Under the pieces are notes generated by a model. That model worked only from the letters and a program-made list of their open reading frames with translations, was not told where the DNA came from and ran no database searches. A DNA stretch of 48,890 nucleotides. It comes from SAR86 cluster bacterium. Lineage in GTDB: Bacteria > Pseudomonadota > Gammaproteobacteria > Pseudomonadales > Pseudohongiellaceae. Below, one piece after another: positions 2,482 through 48,192 of this stretch; the stretch's first letter is position 1, and every line of letters starts with the position of its first letter. The stretch lies in NCBI GenBank assembly GCA_002401885.1, contig NVUL01000015.1, positions 1-48,890 on the forward strand. The letters run 5' to 3'. Both the position numbers and the translations under genes were made by a program.

Positions 2482-4531
2482 ATGGAAGTTTGAAGGCGAC
2501 GAGCTCGGGGCTGTACTCTCGGTCACCAATCGCGACGAGTATGTACTGCTCTCCCTCGTGGAGATAGCTGATCGGGGGTCCGGATGTCCCAGCTTCCAAT
2601 TCAACTTCCCAAACAATGTCACCTGACTCTTTGTTGTAGGCTCGGAACATCGGGCCGCCGCTATTTGTTGCAATCTCGACAGGCATATCAACAGGGATTC
2701 GTCCGCCCGGTCGCTGATTGGTGAGTCCCTCGCCGAGGAACAGTAAAGTCTTGGTGAGTAGTGGCGTGGGTCGTCCTGGCATCCCAAGTGGGCCTAAGTC
2801 TAAATCCACGAGATCAGGATGCTCGGTCGGGCCATTTCCATTCGGCACCATCCACACATGCTCGCCAGTATTCATATCGATAGCCGTAATACGCCCGTAC
2901 GGAGGCTTGAACAGGGGTAGTCCGCGAGGTCCCGCGATCCAGCGTCTCGAGCCTTTCACGTAGCTGAGATTCGTAACCTCCGGGTCGCCAGGCAAAATAT
3001 CGGCAACGAATGGCGATGTTATTGAAGGAATGTACAGGTATCCCGTCTCCGGGTCGAAGGCAGCGCCCTGAACGTCTGCGCCACCCTGCGAGCCTGGTAA
3101 TTGAATCGTTCCCAAGGTTCCATTTGGGTTGTCGCTGCTAATAGATGGTGGTGTGAAGAGGGGGCCTGTCACATAGTTGTTAAAAATCTCTAGCGCTTCC
3201 GCGCGTAACTCCGGCGTAAAATCGATCAGGTTATCAACGGTTGCCCCCTGACGATCGAAAGGAGCGGGTCGAGTCGGAAAGGGCTGTGTGAGTGAGGTGA
3301 TTTCTCCCGGCACGTCGGACTGCGGCACTTCCCGCTCTTCTATTTCCCAGATAGGCTCGCCTGTTTCGCGGTTGAAGACGAAGGCGAAGGCCTGCTTGGT
3401 AAGTTGCGTGATCGCCTTTACCGGTTCGCCATCTACGGTGATATCCATCAAGATTGGTGCCGCGGGCGGATCGTAGTCCCATAGGCCATGATGAACCGTT
3501 TGGTAGTGCCAAACCCGGTCGCCGGTCTCTACATCGACAGCCACTAGAGACTGGCTAAACAGATTGTCGCCGATGCGATGGCCGCCATACATGTCGTTAG
3601 TTGAGGAGGAGATAGGCATGTACACGAGGCCTAGCTCTTCATCGGCACTGAACAGCGCCCAAACGGGTGAGTGACCGGTGTAGGACCAGGATCGGTCCTG
3701 CCAACTAGCCGTGCCGAACTGTCCTTCCTGTGGAATGGTGTTGTAAGTCCAGCGCAATTCGCCAGTGCGTACATCGAAGGCATGTACGTCGCCGCGGAAG
3801 GCTTCTTTGTTAGAGAACGTGTCCGACATGGATTGACCGATGAGGACTATGTCTCGTACCACAGTTGGCACGCCGCCCCAGCGAAATCGCTCGGCACCCT
3901 CGGGCATAAGTTGCAGATTGGTGCGGCCATCGATACCGAAGCCCTCTATCGGTTCTCCATTGCCGGCATTCAGGGCGTATAAATAGACGCCGCGTTGCAC
4001 CAAAATGCGTCGGTCGTTGCCTTCGCTCCAGTAGGCGACTCCCCTGGTATTTGCGCCAGGCAGTCCATCTACCCCGCCAAAGGGCTCCTGAACCCAAATC
4101 GTCTCGCCAGTGCCGGGATTGAATGCCTCGACTAGGCCTACACCATTCGGTACATAGGCGATGCCATTCTTCACTATCGGCGCAGATGTCCAGGTGGAGG
4201 TATAGCGCTGCGCTGGATTCATGGTGGAATAGTAGGCATCTAGCGCAGGCCTTCTCCAAGCTATTTCAAGCTCTGCTACATTGCTGGCATCGATTTGATC
4301 TAGGCTGGTATATTTAGACTGGCCATTGTCGGCGGCGTAGGCTCCCCATTCGCCCTCGGGGGACGGGTTGGCCTGTTCTGCAAGAGGCGCCACAGCGGCC
4401 ATAGAATCGGGCGCTTCAGGGGCTGCAGGCTCCGGCTCTGGGCTGCAGCTAATCAGCAGAGCAGCAAGAGCTGCCAGGCTAAGTGCGCGCAGAGAGTGCG
4501 AAGGAGTTGTTATTGGTGTTGACCAGCTCAT
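2480..4531 (-). CDS. PQQ-dependent dehydrogenase, membrane-bound glucose dehydrogenase-like lipoprotein
   Basis: The 683-aa quinoprotein has a type II signal peptide with lipobox LLISC (Cys about 29), so it is probably a periplasm-facing lipoprotein. The lipobox cysteine is its only Cys, which rules out the vicinal disulfide of methanol dehydrogenases. The propeller starts at EWGAYAADNGQSKYTSLDQI. The segment VHHGLWDYDPPAAPILMD, followed by LTKQAFAFVFNRETGEPIW, matches mGDH-like PQQ dehydrogenases. There is no N-terminal five-helix quinone-binding domain as in E. coli Gcd and no haem motif, so the electron acceptor must be a separate protein. AGAGG precedes the ATG. The gene stands alone. The sugar or alcohol substrate is unknown. 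Confidence 0.85.
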   Translation of the reverse strand: MSWSTPITTPSHSLRALSLAALAALLISCSPEPEPAAPEAPDSMAAVAPLAEQANPSPEGEWGAYAADNGQSKYTSLDQIDASNVAELEIAWRRPALDAYYSTMNPAQRYTSTWTSAPIVKNGIAYVPNGVGLVEAFNPGTGETIWVQEPFGGVDGLPGANTRGVAYWSEGNDRRILVQRGVYLYALNAGNGEPIEGFGIDGRTNLQLMPEGAERFRWGGVPTVVRDIVLIGQSMSDTFSNKEAFRGDVHAFDVRTGELRWTYNTIPQEGQFGTASWQDRSWSYTGHSPVWALFSADEELGLVYMPISSSTNDMYGGHRIGDNLFSQSLVAVDVETGDRVWHYQTVHHGLWDYDPPAAPILMDITVDGEPVKAITQLTKQAFAFVFNRETGEPIWEIEEREVPQSDVPGEITSLTQPFPTRPAPFDRQGATVDNLIDFTPELRAEALEIFNNYVTGPLFTPPSISSDNPNGTLGTIQLPGSQGGADVQGAAFDPETGYLYIPSITSPFVADILPGDPEVTNLSYVKGSRRWIAGPRGLPLFKPPYGRITAIDMNTGEHVWMVPNGNGPTEHPDLVDLDLGPLGMPGRPTPLLTKTLLFLGEGLTNQRPGGRIPVDMPVEIATNSGGPMFRAYNKESGDIVWEVELEAGTSGPPISYLHEGEQYILVAIGDREYSPELVAFKLP

Positions 4532-4748
4532 GGGAATTACCTCTTTGGGTAGTAATTTCTATCGATGTCTCGATTCTAACCAATTACTGTGTACATAAGG
4601 AAACAATTCTCAGAGCTGTGGATGCGCATGGAGTCTTATGTTAGAAAGCATAACAATTACTGACTTTCGTATGGGCAGAAGAAAGAGAAATGGCGCTACA
4701 AATAGCGGGAGAGAATCTCAGTTCAGTAGCGCGCCAAAGCGTAAATCT

Positions 4749-4835
4749 CTAAAGAAAGACTAGGTAGGCAGCGAGAGCCACCATCAGTAATAAAGATAGA
4801 TTCACTTTATGTTGCGAATCGGTAGGGTTTTTCAC
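4749..4835 (-). CDS. 28-aa single-helix membrane microprotein
   Basis: On the minus strand a GTG start at 4835 is preceded by a strong GGAG ribosome binding site with six-base spacing. It encodes a short polar head (KNPTDSQHKVN) followed by one hydrophobic helix (LSLLLMVALAAYLVFL) and a TAG stop. The combination of a well-placed binding site, a transmembrane helix and an immediate stop is typical of small inner-membrane proteins. No family is recognised. It lies in the 368-bp gap between two divergent genes. Coding is plausible but unproven. Confidence 0.45.
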   Translation of the reverse strand: MKNPTDSQHKVNLSLLLMVALAAYLVFL

Positions 4836-12973: not shown

Positions 12974-13615
12974 GTGCCCCACGACCATCATCAACACGAC
13001 CATGAACACACCGATCCACCCTCTGATCTTGAACTTCGAGTGAAGGCTCTCGAGAGTCTGTTGGTAGAGAAGGGCTTGGTGAGGCCGGAAACGCTTAACA
13101 GCATCATCGAGACTTATGAGCACAAGGTAGGCCCACGCAACGGCGCACACGTAGTCGCGAAGGCATGGACAGATCCAGAGTTTAAACAGGCGCTGATGAA
13201 TGATGCGACAGAGGCAGTAGCGAGCCTCGGTTACTGTGGGCGTCAGGGCGAACACTTAGAGGTGGTTGAGAATACCAATGAAACACATAATCTAGTTGTG
13301 TGCACTCTATGCTCCTGCTACCCATGGACCGTGTTAGGTCTGCCTCCAGCCTGGTATAAGTCGGCACCGTATCGATCACGTGCTGTGAGTGATCCCCGTG
13401 GCGTGCTAGAAGAATTTGGCACAGAGCTGGATGATAAGAAGAAAATCAGAGTCTGGGATTCCACTTCGGAGATGCGCTATCTGGTTCTACCTCAGCGACC
13501 GGTAGGAACAGAGAGTTGGAGCGAGCACGATTTACAACAACTAGTGAGCCGCAATTCCATGATAGGAGTAGAACTGGCACGTTCTCCCGAACAGGAAGAT
13601 GAGGGTGGCAAGTGA
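12974..13615 (+). CDS. nthA: nitrile hydratase alpha subunit, cobalt-type motif
   Basis: The 213-aa subunit has the metal-binding claw [10 protein letters not shown] (Cys110, Cys113, Ser114, Cys115). Threonine in CTLCSC is typical of cobalt enzymes, while iron enzymes have CSLCSC. The enzyme hydrates nitriles to amides in the cytosol as an alpha-beta heterodimer, and the two cysteines are normally oxidised post-translationally. The N-terminus is histidine-rich ([16 protein letters not shown]), which could bind metal. The start is GTG 12974 with AGGAG seven bases before. The stop overlaps the beta start by GTGA. No amidase or cobalt transporter is adjacent. Confidence 0.93.
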
Positions 13616-14280
13616 AAGGGGGTCATGACCTAGGCGGCCAGCCCGAGATGGGCCCGATAAATCCTGAGCCCGAATCGAAGGAGCCTGTGTTCCATGCCGA
13701 GTGGGAGCGTCGCGTGTTCGGCCTGACGCTGGCGACGGGCATGTTGGGTAAGTGGAATATCGATGAGTCTCGCCATGCGCGGGAACGTCAGGACCCTCTC
13801 GCCTATGTAGAGAACAGCTATTACGAGAACTGGTTAGAAGGGTTAGAGAAGCTGCTAGTCGAGAAGGGCTTGGTAGATATTGAAGAACTAGGCCAGACGG
13901 CGAGCACGCTGCCTCAAACGACGGAATCACTCACAGTGCCGAATCCAGAGATTGCTCAGAAGATACTCAGCGCCGGCGCGCCCAGCACCATGGGCACGGA
14001 TAGCGAGCCGCTGTTTCGCAGTGGCGATAGCGTCTTAGTTAGAGCTAGCGAGATCGCAGGCCACACGAGAGCACCGAGATATGCGCAGGGGGTGATAGGC
14101 ACCGTTGCAGCACAGTTAGGCTGTCATAGCTTTCCCGACAGCAATGCGCTGGGCATTCATGAGGGAAAATTTCTCTATAGAGTCATCTTTAGTGGAGTTG
14201 ATCTTTGGAGTCATTCTTCCACACAGACCGAAGTATTAATTGACCTTTGGGAACCTTATCTAGTCGCGGCTGCAAACTGA
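13612..14280 (+). CDS. nthB: nitrile hydratase beta subunit
   Basis: The 222-aa protein begins [16 protein letters not shown], the standard beta N-terminus, and has the helical N-terminal domain ([35 protein letters not shown]). The C-terminal SH3-like barrel carries [26 protein letters not shown] and [12 protein letters not shown]. It pairs with the alpha subunit to form the active site. GTG start 13612 overlaps the alpha stop by four bases. Its own TGA shares a base with the ATG of the accessory gene, so all three genes are translationally coupled. Length is normal. Confidence 0.93.
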
Positions 14281-14630
14281 TGCAGAATTTTCCCAATCAA
14301 CCACAGGACGAACAGGGGCCGGTATTCAATGAGCCCTGGGAAGCGCAGGCTTTCGCCTTAGTGTTGGCATTACACGAGGAGGGCCTGTTCAGCTGGCAGG
14401 AATGGGCGTCTGTATTGAGCGAACAGATCGCGCTAGCACAGGCCGGCGGTGACCCCGACCTCGGCAATACCTATTACCAACATTGGTTAGCGGCGTTAGA
14501 GACGATCTCGCGGCAGAAGAACCTCTCCAACGAAGATGAGTTGAAAAAAAGAAAATCAGAGTGGCATGCAGCCTATCTAAACACGCCCCACGGGAAACCG
14601 ATCGAGCTCTCTGCGGGGAAAGTCTCCTGA
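14280..14630 (+). CDS. nitrile hydratase accessory/activator protein (P14K-like)
   Basis: The start is taken as ATG 14280, overlapping the beta-subunit stop (TGATG), which gives 116 residues; a longer frame from 14247 would lie inside nthB. The segment FNEPWEAQAFALVLALHEEGLFSWQEWASVL and YYQHWLAALETI match nitrile hydratase activator proteins, which are homologous to the beta-subunit N-terminus and act in metal insertion and cysteine oxidation of the alpha subunit. The order alpha-beta-activator is the one usually quoted for iron enzymes, whereas the alpha motif is cobalt-type. The length fits a compact activator. Confidence 0.88.
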   Translation: MQNFPNQPQDEQGPVFNEPWEAQAFALVLALHEEGLFSWQEWASVLSEQIALAQAGGDPDLGNTYYQHWLAALETISRQKNLSNEDELKKRKSEWHAAYLNTPHGKPIELSAGKVS

Positions 14631-20817: not shown

Positions 20818-22263
20818 TCACTCGTTATAGGCAGTCGCCACATCGAGATCATCGACATACTCTAGTCCCGCTGGTAATAACAAGCTGTCACCACTAAATG
20901 CTAAGAATACTGTTCGGGAATTGGTTCCAGGGGCTGTAGAACCTGAGGCGAAAATAGCAGTACTGGTGCTATTTGCCGGAATCAGAAGGTTATGGGTCTG
21001 CGGCACTGCTGTAGAATTAATATTACTAGAACCGCTGTCCCAGACTGACGTGCCATTCAAGGCTACACTGGCGCGCTCACCCCAACCGTGGTACGAAGTG
21101 TGGTGTGCAGTTACTGGCCACAGAATTGCCGAGCTCGTCGTATTCTTAATGCGGAATAGGGCCAATGCCATCTTCCCATTGGTAGACGATACCGATGTCC
21201 ATGTGTCCGCAATGATAAGAGCGTTTTTCGATGCATAACCTTTTTTGGTAAAAAGAGTTTGCAGCTCCTCGATAGTGCCCAGACTGTCGACAGTGGCACC
21301 ATTGTCGGTCCAGTTAGAGGGTTGAATGCCTCCAAAAAAGCTACCAGAATTTGCACCTATCCATCCGTGGTTCTGATCGTAACTCGAGAAAACGCTCCAG
21401 CGGTAGATTGCTCCTGAGTGCGACGATCCTCCCGCAGCGCCAGTTGCCCCTGTTGTTCCGGTCGCACCCTGAGTGCCAGTTGCTCCTGCCGGACCTTGAG
21501 GTCCTTGTGCTCCTGTCGACCCCGCGGGGCCTTGTGGTCCCGGTGCGCCAGTAGCTCCGGTTAAACCTTGTGCTCCAGCGGAACCTGCTGAGCCTTGCAG
21601 TCCTGCAGCTCCCGCGGGACCAGGGTTACCTTGTGGTCCTGCAGCTCCTACAGTGCCCGCTAATCCAGCAGTACCAGCGGGCCCCGCAGCTCCAACAGCT
21701 CCAGCAGTTCCCGCTGGTCCAGTCGGTCCTGTGGCTCCCTGCGGTCCGGCAGGTCCTCCCGAACTGCCGGATCCTGCAGGTCCTCTTGGCCCGGCAGGTC
21801 CTTCCGGTCCGACTTCACCTCTTTCACCCTGAATGGCAGCAGTCGCTGCTCCAATCCAGCTACTACTTTGTCCTAAAATATCGAGCCTCGTCTGTCGAAA
21901 AATTGCAGGGTCTTCAGAGACAAGGTTGAAATCAGCTGAATAGGAAACGCCATTGAGTACAAGCATTGGAATAGAAAGCGTGTTTCCACTGAAAGTAGCG
22001 ATATTGTCGCCACTCACATCGAAGATTTGTTCACCAAGTTCAATCTGTAGCTCTATAGGGTCAGTGTTTATCAATCGCAGTTCTACCCGATAGAAGTCAT
22101 CTCCCACAGCGACAGCTGGAACGGACAATTGGTCTCCGCTGACAATTGCTTGTTGGGCCATGATTGAAGCTGGGGTTGCAGCTATTAGAAATGTCATGAA
22201 TATGAACTGGGGGAAATATCGATACAATAAATTCTTATGAGTGCTGGTTTTCTCTATGGACAT
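20818..22263 (-). CDS. secreted collagen-like repeat protein
   Basis: The 481-aa protein has a signal peptide (cleaved near SIMAQ). An N-terminal beta-rich region follows, made of two related units ([18 protein letters not shown] and [18 protein letters not shown]). A collagen-like domain of about 44 Gly-X-Y triplets covers about residues 146-280, with one interruption near GSGSSGG. A C-terminal globular domain of 200 residues starts at GAIYRWSVF. Triplets are rich in GPA, GAT, GPQ and GAA, as expected for bacterial collagen helices without hydroxyproline. It probably forms trimeric surface or extracellular fibres. AGGAG precedes the ATG. The C-terminal domain (probable trimerisation or adhesion head) is not recognised. 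Confidence 0.88.
21424..21828 (-). repeat. Gly-X-Y coding repeat (collagen-like)
   Basis: About 44 nearly uninterrupted nine-base units encode the collagen-like region. Units are degenerate at the DNA level (GGTCCTGCA, GGAACTGCT and similar), so length changes by slippage are possible but no long identical tandem block is seen. Confidence 0.85.
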
Positions 22264-38861: not shown

Positions 38862-40691
38862 TCAGGAATCTTTAGTCGGTTTCTTTATTCCCAGCGTTTT
38901 CATTTGATAGGCGAGGGTTGAAGGTTTTAGACCTAACAACACCGCCGCGCCATCGTCTCCCCACGTTCTCCAATTGGCGTGTTGTAAGGCTGCCGTAATA
39001 TTCGCTTTTTCCAATTCTCTGAATTCAGCGCTGGTTAGGTAGGCAGTTGCTGGCTGTGAGTGCGTGGCAGCGTTGAGCGTTTCTCTCGGTCCTGTGGCGA
39101 GCGCCAGGTCGAGTCTAAGTTTCTTACTTGTCGAAGAAATAACTGCACGGTCGATGGTGTTTTTCAGCTCGCGAATATTTCCCGGCCAGCTGTGGCTCTT
39201 AAGCGAAGTAAACTGATTTTGCGTTAGCGTCAGTGACTCGCGCCCTAGTTCTCTGCAGGCTTTTTCAAGAAAGCTTATGGCAAGAGGCATGACATCATTG
39301 ATGCGTTCTCGTAGCGGAGGTACTTCAATCGGAAACACACTGAGTCGATAGAATAGGTCCTCTCTGAAACGGCCATCTTTCACCTCTGTGGCGAGATCGC
39401 GATTTGTTGCGGCAACTACTCGCACGTTAACTCGCATGGTTTTGTCGTCACCGACTCGCTCAAATTCACTTTCCTGAAGTGCGCGTAATAGTTTCCCCTG
39501 CTGTGCTAAAGGTATTTCTCCTACCTCGTCGAGAAATAGTGTGCCGCCGTCTGCAAGTTGCAGCCGTCCGATTCTGTCTTGATGGGCTCCGGTAAAGGAG
39601 CCTTTCACATGACCAAAAAATTCACTCTCAAAAAGTTCATTGGGAATAGACGCGCAATTTACTTTAACGAGGGGACAGTCAGCTCTGTCGCTCTTGGTGT
39701 GAATCGCGCGAGCGATCATCTCTTTGCCGACACCCGACTCGCCGAGTATAAGAACGCTAGCAGGAGTTTGTGCGACAGCCTCTACTTGGGCTAGCGTGCG
39801 TTTCAGTGCCTCGCTTTCTCCAATGATTTCTCCAAAACTTCCAGAGTCATTAACTTCGTCTCTGAGGTAGTCGCGCTCTAGTTCCAGTCTTTCTTTCAGC
39901 TCTTTAATTTCCTCAAAAGCGAGTTCGCGCTCTTTCTCGAGAGCTTTGCGATCAGAGATATCTCTAAAAACAATTACCGCGCCTGTGAGTTTTCCGTCCT
40001 GAACGATGGGTGTGCTTGTGTACTCGACGGGCACCGCTGAGCCATCGGTGTGCCAGAACACTTCGTTCTCTACTCTGTGGACTTCCCCATCTTGAATGGA
40101 TGCGTATATAGGGCAATCAATCCTTGGGTACTTGCTGCCGTCAGCATGCGAGTGGTGATGTATCTCATGTGAGAAGCGGCCCATAACATCATCTGCCTTC
40201 CAGCCAAGGATCGCGGTGGATGCGCGGTTGCTAAAGGTGATTCTCCCTTCGCTATCCAAGCCGTAAACACCTTCACCGGCGCTATCGAGTATTAACTGGT
40301 ATTGAGAGCGAAGCTGTTCCAGCTCAACAGATTCCTCGGCGCAGTTATCGGTGATGGTCGCGAGAAGAATCAAACAGGGCTCCAGCGTGTCGCCAGCACT
40401 AGCGCACCAAGCTGAAACCGTGGCAGGGATGGTCTCGCCGGCGATCAACAAATTTACTTGGTAGTCGGAGATTGCACCTGCTTGATCAAACAAATTCTCC
40501 AGCTGCGTCTCCAGCTCGGGGCGCTCAATCAAGTCTAGCAAGTCGCCAGCAGGAATCGCTGGCTCTTCATTTATAGGCAGGTCGATTCTGTCCCGCCAAG
40601 GCCTGCTTAGAGCTCGGCACGTAAGCCCGCTATCGAGCATCAGAACCAAAGCAGGGGAATCTGCGAAGGCCCAATCATTTGCTGTTTTCAT
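38862..40691 (-). CDS. sigma-54-dependent activator with PAS, AAA+ and Fis-type HTH domains
   Basis: The 609-aa enhancer-binding protein has an N-terminal PAS-like domain (about 10-115) and a second PAS domain (about 128-248). A coiled linker (about 250-280) and an AAA+ domain follow: Walker A GESGVGKE 317-324, GSFTGA loop 364-369, Walker B GGTLFLDEVG and R-finger region FREDLFYRL. The C-terminal Fis-type HTH is about 577-602 (LGLKPSTLAYQMKTLGI). The second PAS carries an unusual His/Cys cluster (EIHHHSHADGSKYPRIDCPIY). It faces a sigma-54 promoter and three palindromes upstream of the adjacent operon, so it is its presumed activator. AGGGA precedes ATG. Confidence 0.93.
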   Translation of the reverse strand: MKTANDWAFADSPALVLMLDSGLTCRALSRPWRDRIDLPINEEPAIPAGDLLDLIERPELETQLENLFDQAGAISDYQVNLLIAGETIPATVSAWCASAGDTLEPCLILLATITDNCAEESVELEQLRSQYQLILDSAGEGVYGLDSEGRITFSNRASTAILGWKADDVMGRFSHEIHHHSHADGSKYPRIDCPIYASIQDGEVHRVENEVFWHTDGSAVPVEYTSTPIVQDGKLTGAVIVFRDISDRKALEKERELAFEEIKELKERLELERDYLRDEVNDSGSFGEIIGESEALKRTLAQVEAVAQTPASVLILGESGVGKEMIARAIHTKSDRADCPLVKVNCASIPNELFESEFFGHVKGSFTGAHQDRIGRLQLADGGTLFLDEVGEIPLAQQGKLLRALQESEFERVGDDKTMRVNVRVVAATNRDLATEVKDGRFREDLFYRLSVFPIEVPPLRERINDVMPLAISFLEKACRELGRESLTLTQNQFTSLKSHSWPGNIRELKNTIDRAVISSTSKKLRLDLALATGPRETLNAATHSQPATAYLTSAEFRELEKANITAALQHANWRTWGDDGAAVLLGLKPSTLAYQMKTLGIKKPTKDS

Positions 40692-40701
40692 GTCCCTGAT
40701 T

Positions 40702-40757
40702 CCTCAAATAATTGAGGATTAGACCACAGATAGTTGTGGACCACAAATACTTGTGGT
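40702..40757. promoter_or_regulatory. three palindromic activator-binding-site candidates
   Basis: Three palindromes lie in a row: CCTCAA-N4-TTGAGG (40702-40717), CCACA-N6-TGTGG (40724-40739) and ACCACA-N6-TGTGGT (40740-40757). The last two share a core CCACA-N6-TGTGG and sit about 16 bp apart. They are about 70-130 bp upstream of the expected transcription start of the sigma-54 promoter, where enhancer-binding proteins bind. Confidence 0.72.
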
Positions 40758-40801
40758 TGTCGGAATATAGTTAACCCATTGATTAATTTGATAATTACTA
40801 G

Positions 40802-40818
40802 TTGGCACGGTCAGTGCT
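40802..40818 (+). promoter_or_regulatory. sigma-54 (-24/-12) promoter
   Basis: TTGGCACGGTCAGTGCT matches the sigma-54 consensus, TGGCACG-N4-TTGCW, with one mismatch. The invariant GG (40804-40805) and GC (40816-40817) are separated by exactly ten bases. Transcription should start about 40829, 45-50 bases before the first ATG at 40876. Confidence 0.88.
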
Positions 40819-40875
40819 ATATCAGGATTGTAATCACGCTACTTAGATTCAACGGGAAAGCTTAGGAGAAGTGCA

Positions 40876-41043
40876 ATGAATAACACCGATGAAGAAACAG
40901 TTTTTGTCGACTACGACTCAGCATCTGCTGCCGAACCCGAGCGTTTGCAGGATGAGTACTGGACATTCGAATTTGAGGCGATGACTGAGGTGCCAACTGC
41001 ACTAGCCGCCTACGTCTCGCATCAACACACTTTCGACCTCTAG
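40876..41043 (+). CDS. 55-aa acidic small protein, first gene of the sigma-54 operon
   Basis: ATG 40876 follows AGGAGAAG with good spacing and gives 55 residues before TAG 41043. The protein is strongly acidic, with many Glu and Asp in MNNTDEETVFVDYDSAS and LQDEYWTFEFEAM, and ends VSHQHTFDL. It has no signal peptide. No family is recognised. Being first behind the sigma-54 promoter, it is probably an accessory factor, chaperone or leader peptide of the operon. The next gene starts 24 bases later. Confidence 0.72.
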   Translation: MNNTDEETVFVDYDSASAAEPERLQDEYWTFEFEAMTEVPTALAAYVSHQHTFDL

Positions 41044-41067
41044 GTCTTAAGAAAAGGAATTAACAAA

Positions 41068-41496
41068 ATGCAAAGCCAACCACTCCCTCCATTCACTTTG
41101 GAGTCTGCGAAACAGAAAGTTCAAGCCGCGGAGGACGCATGGAACTCGCGCGATGCCGAGCGAGTCGCCCAGGCGTATAGCGTCGATTCTACATGGAGAA
41201 ACAGAGATGAGTTTTTTCAGGGACGGAAATCGATTCAGGAATTCCTAAAAGGCAAGTGGGAGAGAGAACTTCACTACAAGCTAATGAAGGAGCTCTGGGC
41301 GCACAGCGACAATCGTATCTCCGTGCGTTTTGAATACGAATGGCAGCATGCAGAAACGGGACAGTGGTATCGCACTCATGGCAATGAACATTGGGAATTC
41401 GACGAGGACGGTTACATGCGCCGCCGTGACATGAGTGCGAATGACATTCCCATCAACTCCGCTGACCGGCGTATCGGTTATGAGCAAATAGACTAG
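41068..41496 (+). CDS. DUF1348 (NTF2/SnoaL-like) family protein
   Basis: The 142-aa protein fits DUF1348, an NTF2-like fold: [42 protein letters not shown] at the N-terminus and [28 protein letters not shown] in the centre, ending [11 protein letters not shown]. The family has conserved Trp, Arg and His residues in the cavity but no established reaction. AAGGAATTAAC precedes ATG. It is the second gene of the sigma-54 cluster; presumably a small binding or enzymatic partner for the two exported hydrolases, although it has no signal peptide itself. Confidence 0.87.
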
Positions 41497-41534
41497 TAAC
41501 TAACCGAATCATCAATTAACTAGAGGAAACTATC

Positions 41535-42269
41535 ATGAACGCATTAATAAAAATGACAGCAGGCTTACTACTACTTAGTGGAGCCGCCGCGCAGGCGCAA
41601 CTCCCCGACCCCGGTATGGAGATTGTCCCCGGACGAACAGCCTTAGTGGTAACTGATCCACAGAATGATTTTCTCAGCCCTGATGGTGTTGCCTGGGGCG
41701 TTGTTGGCAAGAGCGTCACTGAGAACAATACGGTCAAGAACATCGATTCTTTGTTCAGTGTGGCGAAAGCAGTCGACATGCCAGTATTTATTTCGCCGCA
41801 TTATTATTACCCAACTGACCACGGCTGGAAATTTGAAGGTGCCTTGGAAAAGCTCATGCACAACATCGGCATGTTCGATCGAAAAGGGCACCTGGACACA
41901 CACGGCTTTGAAGGCTCTGGTGCTGACTGGTTAGAACAGTACAAGCCCTACATCAATGATGGCGCGACAGTCGTAACTAATCCGCACAAGGTGTTTGGTC
42001 CGGAAACCAACGATCTAGTCTTACAGCTGCGTAAGCGCGGAGTCGACAAGGTCATTCTTGCGGGCATGTCTGCAAACCTGTGTACCGAATCGCATATGCG
42101 TGAACTCATCGAACAGGGCTTTGAAGTTGTAGTGGTAAGCGATGCTACCGCGGCTGCGCAAGTTGCTGAGGGCGATGGCTATCAGGCGGCGTTGGTAAAT
42201 TTCCGCTTCATCGCCAATTCGGTTTGGACTACGGATCAAACGGTGGAAAAAATTCAGAACAGTCTCTAA
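41535..42269 (+). CDS. exported isochorismatase-fold cysteine hydrolase
   Basis: The 244-aa product has a Sec signal peptide (MNALIKMTAGLLLLSGAAAQ, cleaved near AQAQ), which is unusual for this mostly cytosolic fold. The triad is complete: Asp41 in VVTDPQNDF, Lys152 in NPHKVFGP and Cys183 in SANLCTESH. The fold hydrolyses amides, nicotinamide, isochorismate or related bonds. The HYYYPTDHGWKF region suggests a distinct subfamily. AGGAAAC precedes ATG. It is third in the sigma-54 cluster, followed by an exported alpha/beta hydrolase. The substrate must be periplasmic. Confidence 0.9.
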   Translation: MNALIKMTAGLLLLSGAAAQAQLPDPGMEIVPGRTALVVTDPQNDFLSPDGVAWGVVGKSVTENNTVKNIDSLFSVAKAVDMPVFISPHYYYPTDHGWKFEGALEKLMHNIGMFDRKGHLDTHGFEGSGADWLEQYKPYINDGATVVTNPHKVFGPETNDLVLQLRKRGVDKVILAGMSANLCTESHMRELIEQGFEVVVVSDATAAAQVAEGDGYQAALVNFRFIANSVWTTDQTVEKIQNSL

Positions 42270-42358
42270 CTACACAGGAAAGAGAAGTTCGGATCGGCAA
42301 TACAGCGCGGAAGACAGAGTACTCATAGCAAATATTTTCTATAGATTGGAGAAAGACA

Positions 42359-43423
42359 ATGAAGAAACTAACAATCAATCAAACGTTGACCGCCTTGCTA
42401 CCTGCACTGGTGGCAGCAACTCTACTGATCTCGTGGTCCATTCCTGCGAATGCAGATGTGAACGGCAATACAAATAATGTTGCCTACAAGACTGTAGAAA
42501 TCGAAGGGCTGGATATTTTCTACCGCGAAGCCGGCAACCCGGAGAATCCAACTCTCTTGCTATTGCACGGGTTCCCAACCTCGTCACATATGTTCAGGGA
42601 GCTAATGCCGGCGCTAGCGGATGAATATCATCTGATTGCACCTGACTATCCGGGCTACGGCTATAGCTCTATGCCGAGCGTGTCGGAGTTCGAATATTCG
42701 TTCGACAATATCGCTCGAATCATGGGTAAGCTAGTGGACGACATCGGCATCGATGATTACAGCCTCTACCTTATGGACTACGGCGCACCCATCGGCTACC
42801 GACTAGCAGCTGCTCAACCGGAGCGCATTGAAACACTAGTAATCCAGAATGGTAATGCCTATATGGAAGGGTTAGACAATGACTTCTGGGAGCCGATTCG
42901 CGAGTACTGGAAAGACCGCGACGCGGTGAATTCCGGGCTGGATAACGCTTGGTGGAAAAACGTAAAGACCGCCTACAAGCAGCCCGAGATGAGTAACGAC
43001 CAGGCGCTAAGATTTCTGCTGACGCTAGGCGCGACGAAATGGCAATACACCAACGGTGTGAGCGACGTTGAGGCAGTAAGTCCAGATACCTGGGGCCATG
43101 TACAACCGCTGTTGGATCGAGAGGGCAATCAGGAGATACAACTGCAGATGTTCTACAGCTATGGATCCAACCCTGAACTGTACCCAAGCTGGCAGCAATA
43201 TTTTCGTGATCACCAGCCGCCTACATTAATAGTCTGGGGTCAGAACGATGAGATATTTCCTGCAGCAGGCGCCGAGCCCTATAAGAGAGATTTAGAGAAC
43301 TTGGATTACTACTTGCTGGACACCGGGCACTTCGCTTTGGAAACCCACGTGGATGAAATTGCAGATCGTATGCGCACTTTTCTCAATCGTGAACTGCCGC
43401 AATCTTCCCCGGCCGCTGACTAG
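42359..43423 (+). CDS. exported alpha/beta hydrolase with Asp nucleophile
   Basis: The 354-aa protein has a signal peptide (cleaved near ANAD). The oxyanion motif [10 protein letters not shown] (from H70) and the nucleophile elbow [15 protein letters not shown] carry Asp140 where lipases have Ser. The acid is Asp296 in WGQNDEIFP and the base His323 in DTGHFALE. An aspartate nucleophile is typical of haloalkane dehalogenases and epoxide hydrolases, so a halide, epoxide or related electrophile may be the substrate. A family sharing this MDYGAP elbow is widespread. It is 89 bp after the isochorismatase gene, with a terminator right after the stop. Confidence 0.9.
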
Positions 43424-43434
43424 CGCGCCACTTA

Positions 43435-43465
43435 ATGCGGCCACACCCCGTGGCCGCATATTTTT
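43435..43465 (+). terminator. Rho-independent terminator after the alpha/beta hydrolase
   Basis: ATGCGGCCAC-ACCCC-GTGGCCGCAT is a perfect 10-bp stem followed by ATTTTT. It separates the PPOX-like gene from the sigma-54 operon or reduces its expression. Confidence 0.9.
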
Positions 43466-43499
43466 AAACTTACAACTAGCTAAGATTCCTGGATCAGAC

Positions 43500-44063
43500 A
43501 TGACTCACTCATTCGCAGACACAATGTTTACCGAAAGCGTAAAGGCAGCCCAAAAAGCCTATGGCTCACAGGAGCATAATGAAAACCTCAGACAGAACTT
43601 CGGTCCCAATGATGAGCTGAGTGCAAGAGAAGCAGACTTCATCGCTAAGCGCGATTCATTCTATCTAGCGACAGTGAGTGAAACCGATTGGCCCTACGTT
43701 CAACACCGAGGTGGCCCGGCCGGTTTTCTTAAGGTGATCGGTCCAAAGCAATTGGCCTATGCCGACTTTCGCGGTAACACGCAGTTAGTGAGTGTCGGTA
43801 ATCTGACGAAGAACGATCGCTGCTCTATCATCTTGATGGACTATGCGAATCGGCGCCGTCTAAAGCTTATCGGCCATATACGCGTTGAAGAGGCTTCCAT
43901 GATAAATAAGCAGCTTCTAGATAAAATAGATCTGCCAGACTATGGAGCTGTTGTAGAGAGAGTATTCCTGATCGATCTGGTGGCGTTCGACTGGAACTGC
44001 CCGCAACATATAACGAAACGTTATACGGAAGCAGAAATAGCAGTATTGGCTACTAGGGACTGA
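43500..44063 (+). CDS. pyridoxamine 5'-phosphate oxidase-family (FMN-binding split barrel) protein
   Basis: The ATG at 43500 is chosen because the longer frame from 43353 starts inside the hydrolase gene and runs through its terminator. The 187-aa product has a PPOX-like split barrel: FIAKRDSFYLATVSETDWPYVQHRGGPAGFLKV, then LAYADFRGNTQLVSVGNL and LIDLVAFDWNCPQHI at the C-terminus. WNCPQHI marks the group of PPOX proteins sometimes found with flavin-dependent reductases. It probably binds FMN or F420. It lies 77 bp after the hydrolase stop, so it is only loosely linked to the sigma-54 cluster. Confidence 0.85.
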   Translation: MTHSFADTMFTESVKAAQKAYGSQEHNENLRQNFGPNDELSAREADFIAKRDSFYLATVSETDWPYVQHRGGPAGFLKVIGPKQLAYADFRGNTQLVSVGNLTKNDRCSIILMDYANRRRLKLIGHIRVEEASMINKQLLDKIDLPDYGAVVERVFLIDLVAFDWNCPQHITKRYTEAEIAVLATRD

Positions 44064-44121: not shown

Positions 44122-45126
44122 TTATTCGGATTCTTGCCTCCTAGCCCCAGCCAATATGCTGGGCATTGAGTAGTTTCCTTCATGGCAGGCGTATTCATAG
44201 ATATTTTCACCCGGCGGTCTTCTTGCGATATTTTTCTCTACTACAACTGGCTCGGTAAGCATCTCCGGATCGGTGAGGGTAAGGCTGTAATAGATCTCAT
44301 TTTCTGAGCTCATTCTGAAGCGCTCGGTGGTAGCTAATTGATCCGACATGCGGAATGCGAACCAAGATTGTTCGGGTCTAAAACTTGTAGTTTCCACTAC
44401 GAGTGTGTCTCCATCCCAATGCCCATGGGAATTACCCATCCACTGCGGGAAGGGTTTGCTGGCTTGCTCACGATTGAGTGGGATGATGCGCACATCATGA
44501 TTCATCTCCGCCAAGATGATGAAGTAGTCTTCGGTTTGTATAATTTGCATATTGGCGTTATAGAACCATCCAATCATCGGCGCCGCTGGGCCTCCATTCG
44601 GCCCGACACAACGTTCACTCACCGGCCTGATTTCCGGCCCATCGAAAGCGCCATGTCCCTCTGATTGGAAGCGCTCAAAGAAATCTAAAGCCCCTGCGCG
44701 ATAAGGCCACCGTCCATTCTCCGGGCTAACGATTTGAGAAGTGCGATACTCGCCATCAATCTTCACCAGATCAATACGAGAGCTGGCAAATTCATGGTCT
44801 GCATCCTGAGAAATAGGAGCTCCAGCAACAGGAGCAGCTCGATTCGGGTCCTGGTTTGCTAACTTTGCATTATCCGCATCCACTAATGATTGCCGCACCG
44901 ACATCGCTTCTGCTTCGCTGTACACCTTCTTCTCACCCAGATTCGTTGGCCTACTAAAAGGCGTGCCCGAACCGTAGAACCACACTCCCTGTAGATTTGG
45001 TTGGCCGTACTCGGTTGGAGGCAGCGCCTGAGCCTCCGCAGCATGAGCGCGAGTTGCTGGTAATTGAATAACCATTACGAATGTTAGGCAGCAAAGTGAA
45101 ACTGACATGCATCTAGAACGGCACAT
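44122..45126 (-). CDS. secreted protein of unknown function, paralog A
   Basis: The 334-aa protein has a signal peptide (MCRSRCMSVSLCCLTFVMVI, cleaved near AHAAEA). Its landmarks are TEYGQPNLQGVWFYGSG, SERCVGPNGGPAAP, NANMQIIQTEDYFIILAEM, GHWDGDTLVVETTSF and YEYACHEGNYSM. The same landmarks occur in the gene at 47170-48192. The family is common in environmental gammaproteobacteria in my recollection, but I can assign no function. Two conserved cysteines (SERC and ACHEG) may form a disulfide or bind a metal. GAGGGG precedes the start. It lies 13 bp after the GGT gene, so the two form an operon. Confidence 0.8.
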   Translation of the reverse strand: MCRSRCMSVSLCCLTFVMVIQLPATRAHAAEAQALPPTEYGQPNLQGVWFYGSGTPFSRPTNLGEKKVYSEAEAMSVRQSLVDADNAKLANQDPNRAAPVAGAPISQDADHEFASSRIDLVKIDGEYRTSQIVSPENGRWPYRAGALDFFERFQSEGHGAFDGPEIRPVSERCVGPNGGPAAPMIGWFYNANMQIIQTEDYFIILAEMNHDVRIIPLNREQASKPFPQWMGNSHGHWDGDTLVVETTSFRPEQSWFAFRMSDQLATTERFRMSSENEIYYSLTLTDPEMLTEPVVVEKNIARRPPGENIYEYACHEGNYSMPSILAGARRQESE

Positions 45127-47130: not shown

Positions 47131-47180
47131 AAAGGTCAGAGGGGAGCAAAGGGGTCAAAGTTCTTTGAATTACAGTCCCC
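47131..47180. repeat. REP-like palindromic element at the end of paralog B
   Basis: Read on the minus strand, GGGGACTGTAATTCAAAG, then AACTTTGACCCC follows, with an inner palindrome TCAAAG-TT-CTTTGA (47155-47168). A degenerate second GGTCAGAGGGG lies at 47134-47144. This resembles REP-type units seen in gammaproteobacteria, by recollection. The first bases supply the last codon and stop of paralog B. Confidence 0.5.
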
Positions 47181-48192
47181 GAAATAAATCCGCTACTCGA
47201 TCAGACACCTCACTAGCCTCTTTTCGGCGTGCGCCGCGTAGCATATTGGCCATGCCATAGTTTCCCTCGTGGCAGGCATACTCGTACAGCTGAGCCGCAA
47301 CTTTGGTTATGGGCAATATAGCGCTAAACTTATCAGTGAAGGTAGAGGGGTCGTCGATAGTGAACTCATAGTTGATGGTCCGCGGCCCGACACGCGTAAA
47401 TCGTTCTGTGAGTACTTTGTTTTTGGAAGTGCCGAAACCATCGAAGCTTTGCGTCAGGCCATTAAAATTTTGTGTTACCACAATCAGTGTATCGCCATCC
47501 CAATGACCACGTGAGTCCCCCGACCAGAGCCCCAGACTCTCATCGAGGGCCGGGCGCTTTTCGAGTTTAACAATGCGAGCGTCATGAACCATCTCGGTCA
47601 GGATCACCATATGATCTCTGTTCTGTATGATCTGCAAGTTGTTGTTATACACACTTGGTGATAGCGGTGGGCCAGCGTTAAAGCCGACTAGACAACGCTC
47701 CGAAAGGCCTCGATCTTCTGGGCCATCCCGGCCAATGCCGCCGATTACAAATCTCACCGGACGTTCACCAGCAGCCTCTATTTCTCCACCGGGTTGATTT
47801 TCTATGCCCTCTGCAAGCGGAGGAAGTCGACCATTCGGCGGAAAGACGATTAGCGATGTGCGCACGTTGCCTTCGCCTTGAACTTTTTCCATCCAGATGG
47901 TGTCATTGTAAAAAGCTTCAACGCCAGATGCTGACCTTGTGGGCGCATCTGCGGCGCCCAACCCAAAACGCGGAAGCTGTGCTAGGGCGATCTCATCATC
48001 GGTGAGAAATTGTCGCTCTCCGAATTCCTCGGGGCGTTGCATGGGGACATTGGATGAGAAATTCCAAACGCCCTGCAGGTCGGGTAGCCCCCACTCGGTG
48101 CGCGGAACTTTATAGTCTTCGGCAGCTAGGCCAGGTTGGGAAGCCTGCAGTGAAAACCACAATAGTAGTAACAGCGAACACTGTCTCTTCAT
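47170..48192 (-). CDS. secreted protein of unknown function, paralog B
   Basis: The 340-aa protein has a signal peptide (cleaved near PGLAAE) and is clearly related to the gene at 44122-45126. Shared landmarks are TEWGLPDLQGVWNFSSN, SERCLVGFNAGPP, NNNLQIIQNRDHMVILTEM, GHWDGDTLIVVTQNF and YEYACHEGNYGM. An extra C-terminal tail (ASEVSDRVADLFRGL) ends in a repeat element. It lies 239 bp from the GGT gene on the same strand. The function is unknown. GGAATAGCTG precedes the ATG. The paralogs flank the GGT gene, suggesting a common periplasmic role. Confidence 0.8.
   Translation of the reverse strand: MKRQCSLLLLLWFSLQASQPGLAAEDYKVPRTEWGLPDLQGVWNFSSNVPMQRPEEFGERQFLTDDEIALAQLPRFGLGAADAPTRSASGVEAFYNDTIWMEKVQGEGNVRTSLIVFPPNGRLPPLAEGIENQPGGEIEAAGERPVRFVIGGIGRDGPEDRGLSERCLVGFNAGPPLSPSVYNNNLQIIQNRDHMVILTEMVHDARIVKLEKRPALDESLGLWSGDSRGHWDGDTLIVVTQNFNGLTQSFDGFGTSKNKVLTERFTRVGPRTINYEFTIDDPSTFTDKFSAILPITKVAAQLYEYACHEGNYGMANMLRGARRKEASEVSDRVADLFRGL

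Follow-up and report, generated by a model that had tools for sequence, protein, structure and literature searches.

A SAR86 cluster bacterium carries two dissimilar hydrolases with predicted export signals side by side, near a divergent gene for a sigma-54 activator. Do these genes and their neighbors form a functional unit and, if so, what might it act on? We addressed this in a 48,890-nucleotide stretch of contig NVUL01000015.1 (the window), which belongs to a genome that is 84% complete. An earlier note had described a PAS-AAA+-Fis activator facing an operon for a small acidic protein, a DUF1348 protein, an isochorismatase-fold cysteine hydrolase (ISO), and an alpha/beta hydrolase (ABH), with a PPOX-fold protein behind. 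Open reading frames and Pfam bore out all six genes at the positions named, with the activator's HTH_8 match slightly below the cut-off.

Gene set and control region

The features of the locus are as follows.

38862..40691, minus strand: sigma-54 activator (Pfam Sigma54_activat and PAS), 45-56% identical to the activators of loci L009, L010, and L012
40702..40717, no strand: candidate activator site 1, CCTCAAATAATTGAGG; register in relatives about -100 from the -24 element
40724..40739, no strand: candidate activator site 2, CCACAGATAGTTGTGG; register about -78
40741..40756, no strand: candidate activator site 3, CCACAAATACTTGTGG; register about -61
40803..40818, plus strand: predicted sigma-54 -24/-12 promoter, TGGCACG-GTCA-GTGCT
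40876..41043, plus strand: small acidic protein of 55 aa; relatives at L013, L014, L015, L020, and L021
41068..41496, plus strand: DUF1348 protein, NTF2-like (Pfam E 3.8e-61; 2imj E 2.2e-48)
41535..42269, plus strand: ISO, with export signal (Pfam Isochorismatase; Asp41, Lys152, Cys183)
42359..43423, plus strand: ABH, with export signal (Pfam Abhydrolase_1; Asp140, Asp297, His324; HGFP)
43435..43459, plus strand: GC-rich terminator-like hairpin between ABH and PPOX (fold z -2.43)
43500..44063, plus strand: PPOX-fold protein (PNPOx_N E 1.9e-07), start as in relatives

Export signals had been claimed for both hydrolases, and a home-made rule predicted signal peptides on each. The same rule found none in 33 DUF1348 proteins and none on the PPOX-fold protein read from 43500. 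That position is most likely its true start, since relatives begin there; the gene itself stood, and the start at 43353 given earlier probably does not. The acidic protein contains 13 D/E and one K/R, ends in an ALAAYVxHQ-like motif, had no Pfam or NCBIfam matches, and has relatives that always precede DUF1348 (at the five loci listed above). None of the six proteins reached an NCBIfam cut-off among the matches listed (the best 25 of 43 for the activator and the best 25 of 28 for ABH); the nearest family to DUF1348 was TIGR02246, below its cut-off at 24.8 of 33.95 bits. A hairpin lies 3' of ABH in 10 of 18 ABH gaps, and the hairpin scan overall gave 6 such sites compared with 5.7 in shuffles.

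The predicted promoter scored 15.1 of 16.1 and was the sole site in the window scoring at least 15. Scores of at least 14.5 were reached in 15 of 27 related regions (L073 was omitted because its activator is 7 kb off), against 0.17 in shuffles. The three palindromic candidate sites keep a fixed register where they recur, which is in 13 of the 27 upstream regions. Exact matches to the site pattern number four genome-wide, three of them in this control region; the pattern was derived from these same sites, and the independent evidence is the fixed spacing rather than the match count. Together with an rpoN gene found in the host genome, the locus carries sequence features of a sigma-54 operon: a -24/-12 promoter, an AAA+ activator, and upstream candidate sites. 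Judged from its sequence, this is an operon with a sigma-54-type promoter facing the divergent PAS-AAA+ activator gene, and the same candidate control sites are kept in the cluster's closer kin.

Recurrence of the cluster

To ask how far the grouping extends, we checked neighbors across related genomes; 80 of the loci are the best of at least 573, and the sample therefore leans to close relatives. The neighbors were conserved. Of 31 loci classed as sigma-54-type, 22 had ABH in the vicinity of ISO, compared with 6 of 51 others; the 31 include two in which the protein matched was a PAS histidine kinase (L043 and L051) and one whose divergent gene is LysR-type (L020), and the Fisher tests on locus counts take related loci as independent. 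Entries L009 and L018 represent one and the same stretch; the export counts include both, and the tree and the promoter counts leave L009 out. The gene set is retained as far out as Zixibacteria (L025) and Phycisphaerae (L077), and at four loci, L034 being one, ISO and ABH are naturally fused into a single protein, with a signal-like N-terminus in three of the four by the home-made rule.

The association is looser elsewhere. ISO occurred without ABH in all 18 AraC-type loci, some of them incomplete, and also beside TetR-type regulators, and ABH is frequently found without ISO. Among 398 genomes, 6 had ISO and 40 had ABH; the two occurred together in 2, one of them the host. Co-occurrence in 1 of the other 397 genomes, where about 0.5 would be expected, lends no support at the genome-wide level. 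Such separation in many genomes is what a chance grouping of unrelated genes would produce, an explanation that we regard as very improbable given the fusions, the recurring gene set, and the shared control array in fixed register. The grouping exceeds chance, since the predicted promoter, the candidate activator sites, and the gene set are all seen again at other loci, and the proposal of one unit with a sigma-54-type promoter and two hydrolases bearing export signals holds. The definition of the unit by five genes proved too strict: the group does recur, but ISO without ABH beside AraC or TetR regulators, and ABH without ISO, fall outside it.

The host genome has a second ISO copy with an RclR-like AraC regulator beside it. 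For the six AraC regulators tested (5 of 23 in cluster 3 and one in L008), the best NCBIfam match was in each case the chlorine sensor RclR at 79-125 bits, far below the 400-bit cut-off of NF040475. Two TetR neighbors had DicD as best match, below cut-off, which suggests nothing. Genes for carboxymuconolactone-decarboxylase-family proteins, glutaredoxins, and ChrR-like cupins occurred in 10, 7, and 4 of 84 loci, respectively, with adjacency not constant. Relatives also occur on plasmids; on the annotated ones, neighbor genes were seen that gave no functional clue. In the literature, we found no description of such a cluster, of an isochorismatase with DUF1348 or with RclR, or of a function for these ISO relatives.

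Hydrolases and sensor

The ISO triad had been called intact, and Asp41, Lys152, and Cys183, the isochorismatase-like Asp-Lys-Cys triad, were invariant in 41 of 41 aligned proteins. These relatives, picked as best matches, share 66-85% identity with the copy in the window and span several phyla. ISO shares its fold and triad with the amidohydrolases 3kl2, biuret hydrolase BiuH, triuret hydrolase, and RutB; it differs in its predicted export signal, is at most 25% identical among the 50 structure matches listed, and is far below the cut-offs of all five NCBIfam matches. By the home-made rule, the export signal is absent from ISO of L031, L053, L061, L071, and the first copy of L050; at L061 and L071, ABH has one though ISO does not.

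RutB and the biuret and triuret hydrolases are nitrogen-release enzymes, and sigma-54 often serves nitrogen metabolism. Both points would fit a nutrient-scavenging pathway, exported and controlled by sigma-54, in which a natural product with an amide group serves as a source of nitrogen or carbon. We consider this unlikely: from the activator to the end of PPOX there is no transporter or catabolic gene, the activator's sensor is a PAS rather than a receiver domain, and stress-type genes and regulators adjoin some relatives.

For ABH, the Asp140 nucleophile proposed earlier was invariant in all 24 proteins, as were Asp297 and His324. HGFP was present in 23 of the 24 (HGYP in the other) and Asp-Tyr in every one. 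In the cap, Tyr268 is conserved in all 24 and Tyr183 in all but one, which has Phe; judged by spacing, these may correspond to the two tyrosines (or His-Tyr) that open the ring in epoxide hydrolases. By sequence, the cap taken alone matched no solved cap; its matches were to fragments of the C-terminal core of other hydrolases and to a single unrelated chain. Among the hallmarks of alpha/beta epoxide hydrolases, ABH has H-G-X-P with an aromatic X, an Asp nucleophile, and a His with an acid. The H-G-X-P motif is as given in PMC8244358.

A haloalkane or epoxide substrate had been suggested. Among the matches listed, whole-length PDB sequence matches were the epoxide hydrolases 4io0, 4inz, 4nzz, and 4o08 and the Cif-like Cfl2, the latter aligned over positions 3-280 of a 291-position profile. 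Cfl2 (7jqz) was also the top Foldseek match, at 21% identity, and nearly all of the 50 listed Foldseek matches were dehalogenases with similar scores; the fold does not separate the two classes. ABH has the fold and Asp nucleophile of the haloalkane dehalogenases DhaA, DmmA, and DhmeA, which also gave its strongest sequence scores, over the N-terminal core; the main sequence matches end before the cap. In haloalkane dehalogenases, HG-N-P and Asp-Trp have a halide-stabilizing role. The alignments show HGNP and DW in those enzymes, whereas ABH has HG-F-P for HG-N-P and Asp-Tyr for Asp-Trp, so dehalogenase activity is unsupported; on these residues and the partial sequence alignments, we rejected it. 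The epoxide half of the suggestion is supported in part, by HGFP and the listed whole-length matches.

Cif, an alpha/beta hydrolase with an Asp nucleophile, is exported, as ABH is predicted to be, and its gene belongs to an inducible operon, but its regulator is the TetR-like repressor CifR, not a sigma-54 activator (PMC8244358). According to the same paper, Cfl1 and Cfl2 are predicted to be non-exported, unlike ABH, and Cfl2 lacks the HG-X-P histidine and is only a very weak epoxide hydrolase; in the available sections, no cysteine hydrolase partner is mentioned for Cif or Cif-like enzymes.

Predicted export of both enzymes and plasmid-borne relatives would also suit inactivation of a signal or antibiotic, with the pair hydrolyzing an ester, lactone, or amide from neighboring microbes; an alpha/beta hydrolase with an amidase would fit a lactone/amide compound. 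This seems to us quite improbable, as no signaling gene was seen adjoining the operon and the residues give no preference for such substrates over epoxides.

The activator consists of an N-terminal region, a PAS domain (~130-245), an AAA+ domain (289-456) with a GSFTGA loop, and a Fis-type HTH (558-598). Its AAA+ and HTH architecture is that of NorR, PrdR, and FhlA, which gave the best NCBIfam scores; for NorR this was 372 of 476 bits, and each of the best 25 of 43 matches was below cut-off. It differs from them in its sensor, a PAS domain with a His/Cys motif, which is replaced by a GAF domain in other lineages' activators. The window's PAS carries HHHSHADGSKYPRIDCPIY. An exact or near form of HHHSxxDGxxYPxxxCPIY, searched with a permissive pattern, was present in 21 of 29 neighboring activators (counting L009 and L018, the same stretch, and L012, which lacks ISO) and in the kinase near ISO at L043 and L051. 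A search for solved relatives of this domain returned two weak PAS matches.

Proposed role

On our preferred but tentative reading, this conserved cluster may be an inducible detoxification module that works through exported enzymes and targets electrophilic compounds of the epoxide or amide type; its probable task is to break down a reactive chemical outside the cell. The PAS domain would sense the compound or the resulting stress, perhaps through its conserved His/Cys motif, and an activator hexamer would open the sigma-54 promoter. Asp140 of ABH would attack an epoxide-like carbon, with His324-Asp297 hydrolyzing the resulting ester intermediate, and Cys183 of ISO, with Asp41 and Lys152, would cleave a C-N bond in the same or a related compound. 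Besides the hydrolases, the set includes two proteins predicted to be cytoplasmic, DUF1348 and PPOX, which may deal with whatever reaches the cytoplasm, and, in close kin, the small acidic protein. The stress theme around some relatives (RclR-like regulators, glutaredoxin, and others) lends some weight to detoxification. In one study, a fungal DUF1348 protein expressed in Neurospora conferred cercosporin resistance, and loss of the fungal DUF1348 gene left resistance unaffected (PMC4608573).

The folds are known; their conserved combination, fusion, and control appear to be new. On a wider view, which is possible but doubtful, this could be an envelope defense module that is widespread and moves horizontally, with an exported enzyme pair or fusion to clear away a reactive electrophile outside the cytoplasm. 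Its sensors would be interchangeable (PAS- or GAF-sigma-54 activators, a PAS histidine kinase, RclR-like AraC, and TetR), and the His/Cys PAS would represent a new sensor class. With a defined promoter, three candidate sites, and a natural fusion, the system lends itself to direct testing; a reporter could reveal its inducer, which in turn would be a lead to the substrate. The cluster would also provide a bacterial setting for DUF1348.

Gene layout and conservation of the cluster

The cluster comprises a regulator gene and a plus-strand operon in the following order, where ISO and ABH denote two hydrolases with export signals:

38862-40691, minus strand: sigma-54 activator gene, divergent from the operon
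Plus strand: gene for a 55-aa acidic protein
41068-41496, plus strand: DUF1348, an NTF2-like protein
41535-42269, plus strand: ISO, an isochorismatase-fold cysteine hydrolase
42359-43423, plus strand: ABH, an alpha/beta hydrolase
Plus strand: hairpin
43500-44063, plus strand: PPOX-fold protein (43500 being the most likely start)

Pfam confirmed the families of these genes, returning no match for the acidic protein. The catalytic residues that the earlier note had named for ISO (Asp41-Lys152-Cys183) and ABH (Asp140) proved correct and are invariant across aligned relatives.

Strong ABH matches occurred in 5 of 229 genomes of the class, the window's own among them. A phylum-level survey of 398 genomes at E 1e-70 placed ISO in 6 and ABH in 40; 2 genomes, one of them the window's own, had both. 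In one of the five class genomes with a strong ABH match, locus L009 has the window's order of activator, DUF1348, ISO, ABH, and PPOX, with a DoxX gene added and the acidic protein absent. We also sampled ISO relatives from species genomes; the best 80 of at least 573 span many phyla, as judged by record titles. Relatives of the acidic protein are found in five loci of these 80, always ahead of DUF1348, and gene combinations with a sigma-54 activator recur out to Zixibacteria (L025) and Phycisphaerae (L077).

We tabulated 82 loci, calling 31 sigma-54-type (two with a PAS histidine kinase and one with a LysR-type divergent gene included) and 51 others. ABH lies near ISO in 22 of the 31 versus 6 of the 51, DUF1348 in 21 versus 9, and PPOX in 13 versus 7; none of the 18 AraC-type ISO loci has ABH. 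On the ISO tree, where many forks are weak, regulator type requires 21 changes compared with a shuffled mean of 48.1, so it is clustered yet has switched repeatedly. We further sampled the surroundings of ABH in 20 ABH-bearing stretches plus 7 more. In several, ABH accompanies PPOX, DUF1348, or LysR/TetR regulators, and many of the proteins have export-like N-termini by eye. A Phaeobacter plasmid groups PPOX, ABH, NTF2-like, cysteine hydrolase, YHS, and CMD genes with TetR and AraC regulators. The system is modular, and the window's cluster is its sigma-54 version. That a real, conserved system exists is very likely.

Other ISO relatives lie on plasmids, including L161 and L163 (about 57-62% identical). 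One on a Pseudomonas plasmid adjoins a Tn3-family transposase accompanied by aminoglycoside genes, and one on a mercury-resistance plasmid adjoins a gene whose annotation reads chloride peroxidase. Among the 120 matched plasmid records, 58 are of Lactococcus origin. The window's genome encodes a second ISO with an export signal, 66% identical to the first. It diverges from the gene of an AraC regulator that in NCBIfam matches RclR best (L008:4973-5728 and 3864-4802). The contig of this locus, C111, ends directly behind it.

Control region and sensor domain

The predicted promoter, TGGCACG-GTCA-GTGCT at 40803, is the sole site scoring at least 15 in the 48.9-kb window, and rpoN was found in the genome. 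Scores of at least 14.5 occurred in 15 of 27 upstream regions, compared with 0.17 in shuffles. A set of three CCWCAR-N4-YTGWGG palindromes precedes the -24 element by about 100, 78, and 61 bases. Allowing at most one mismatch per site, 10 of the 27 regions have the full trio and 13 have at least one palindrome in register. L034 adds a 14th region, whose single site falls out of register; no site occurs in the remaining 13, a group that takes in the tandem loci and most of the GAF-type ones. Exact palindromes number four in the whole genome, three of them in this control region. The reversed pattern likewise gave four matches, so the fourth palindrome may be chance. This distribution points to a regulator that would be local and dedicated.

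Of 29 neighboring activators, 21 carry the PAS motif HHHSxxDGxxYPxxxCPIY or a close variant of it; the eight lacking it (L025, L026, L027, L029, L034, L041, L050, and L077) all have a GAF domain. The PAS domain has a single further match in the window's genome (26% identical). The same His/Cys motif occurs on an apparent histidine kinase upstream of ISO in two loci (L043:5570-6781 and L051:5557-6786), so the sensor domain may have been swapped between output types. We infer a metal or thiol role for the His and Cys residues.

Class and location of the two hydrolases

The ABH model was confident (mean pLDDT, 85.1). Its top match was Cfl2, and nearly all of the best 50 Foldseek matches were haloalkane dehalogenases, alongside three fluoroacetate dehalogenase matches. 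All listed matches were near 20% identity with similar scores, so fold by itself cannot settle the class. In sequence searches, dehalogenases scored highest, but their alignments covered the N-terminal core plus one weak stretch toward the C-terminus. Nearly whole-profile matches were to Cfl2 (among the best 60 of 85) and, in a second search (56 rows), to four soluble epoxide hydrolase entries. Dehalogenases carry HG-N-P and Asp-Trp, whereas ABH carries HG-F-P and Asp-Tyr. Together, the whole-length matches and replaced residues make ABH a putative epoxide-hydrolase-like enzyme, as judged from sequence. A sequence search for a solved relative of its cap found none.

For the ISO model (mean pLDDT, 83.1), the matches were 3kl2 and the folds of RutB, biuret hydrolase, and triuret hydrolase, with identities of 19-24%. 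The reaction of ISO is likely of the amidase type. Elsewhere in the window are the following:

12974-14630: nitrile hydratase subunit-like genes, based on CTLCSCYPW, which we take to be the metal motif
20818-22263: protein that starts like an exported one and contains a long stretch of collagen-like Gly-X-Y repeats (by eye)
44122-45126 and 47170-48192: two look-alike proteins with export-like starts; for the first, Pfam and NCBIfam searches at E 0.01 returned nothing
Between these two: gamma-glutamyltransferase-like gene (by eye)

The nitrile hydratase-like genes are a possible source of amide.

Using a home-made signal-peptide rule, we called signals on 72 of 84 ISO and 19 of 28 ABH proteins; of the nine ABH without one, four are fused domains and several others are pieces. 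DUF1348 had none (0/33), and the single PPOX call (1/22) was the window's over-long frame. ISO lacked a called signal in L031, L053, L061, L071, and the first copy of L050; two further uncalled ISO (L049 and L086) resemble Tat leaders by eye. In four loci (L025, L026, L034, and L077), ISO and ABH share a single stop-free frame. Three of these fusions have a signal-like N-terminus under the same rule, and that of L077 is strongly hydrophobic without positive charge. Such fusion argues that both domains would act in one place. In L009 (6656-8074), one open frame spans DUF1348 and ISO without a stop, leaving the ISO signal peptide internal; this may be a real fusion, an overlap, or an assembly error.

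Accessory genes and proposed function

DUF1348 is similar to 2imj. In one published account, 11 of 27 Neurospora transformants tested became more resistant to cercosporin when they expressed the fungal DUF1348 protein 71cR, but loss of this protein in Cercospora had no effect (PMC4608573). The hairpin between ABH and PPOX is terminator-like, in a scan yielding 6 such sites versus 5.7 in shuffles. Of 18 gaps behind ABH, 10 contain a hairpin, which in six cases has a T-rich tail; the corresponding counts are 7 of 28 behind ISO and 1 of 20 behind DUF1348. Partial read-through into PPOX may occur.

RclR was the best NCBIfam match for all six AraC regulators given near ISO relatives, far under the cut-off. 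Among 84 loci, 7 contain a glutaredoxin gene, 10 a CMD-family gene, and 4 a ChrR-like cupin gene; the surroundings of some ISO relatives have a stress flavor. The cluster may serve to scavenge nitrogen or to inactivate compounds of microbial origin. If ABH is of the epoxide type, ISO of the amidase type, and both act outside the cytoplasm, the function that fits best is inducible detoxification, in which the predicted exported enzymes would remove an electrophilic compound; we hold it tentatively, at a little under an even chance. A literature search, with most subscription papers beyond reach, returned no description of this gene combination. The folds are already known; what appears to be new is the conserved pair of exported ISO and ABH, together with its fused form and its control array.
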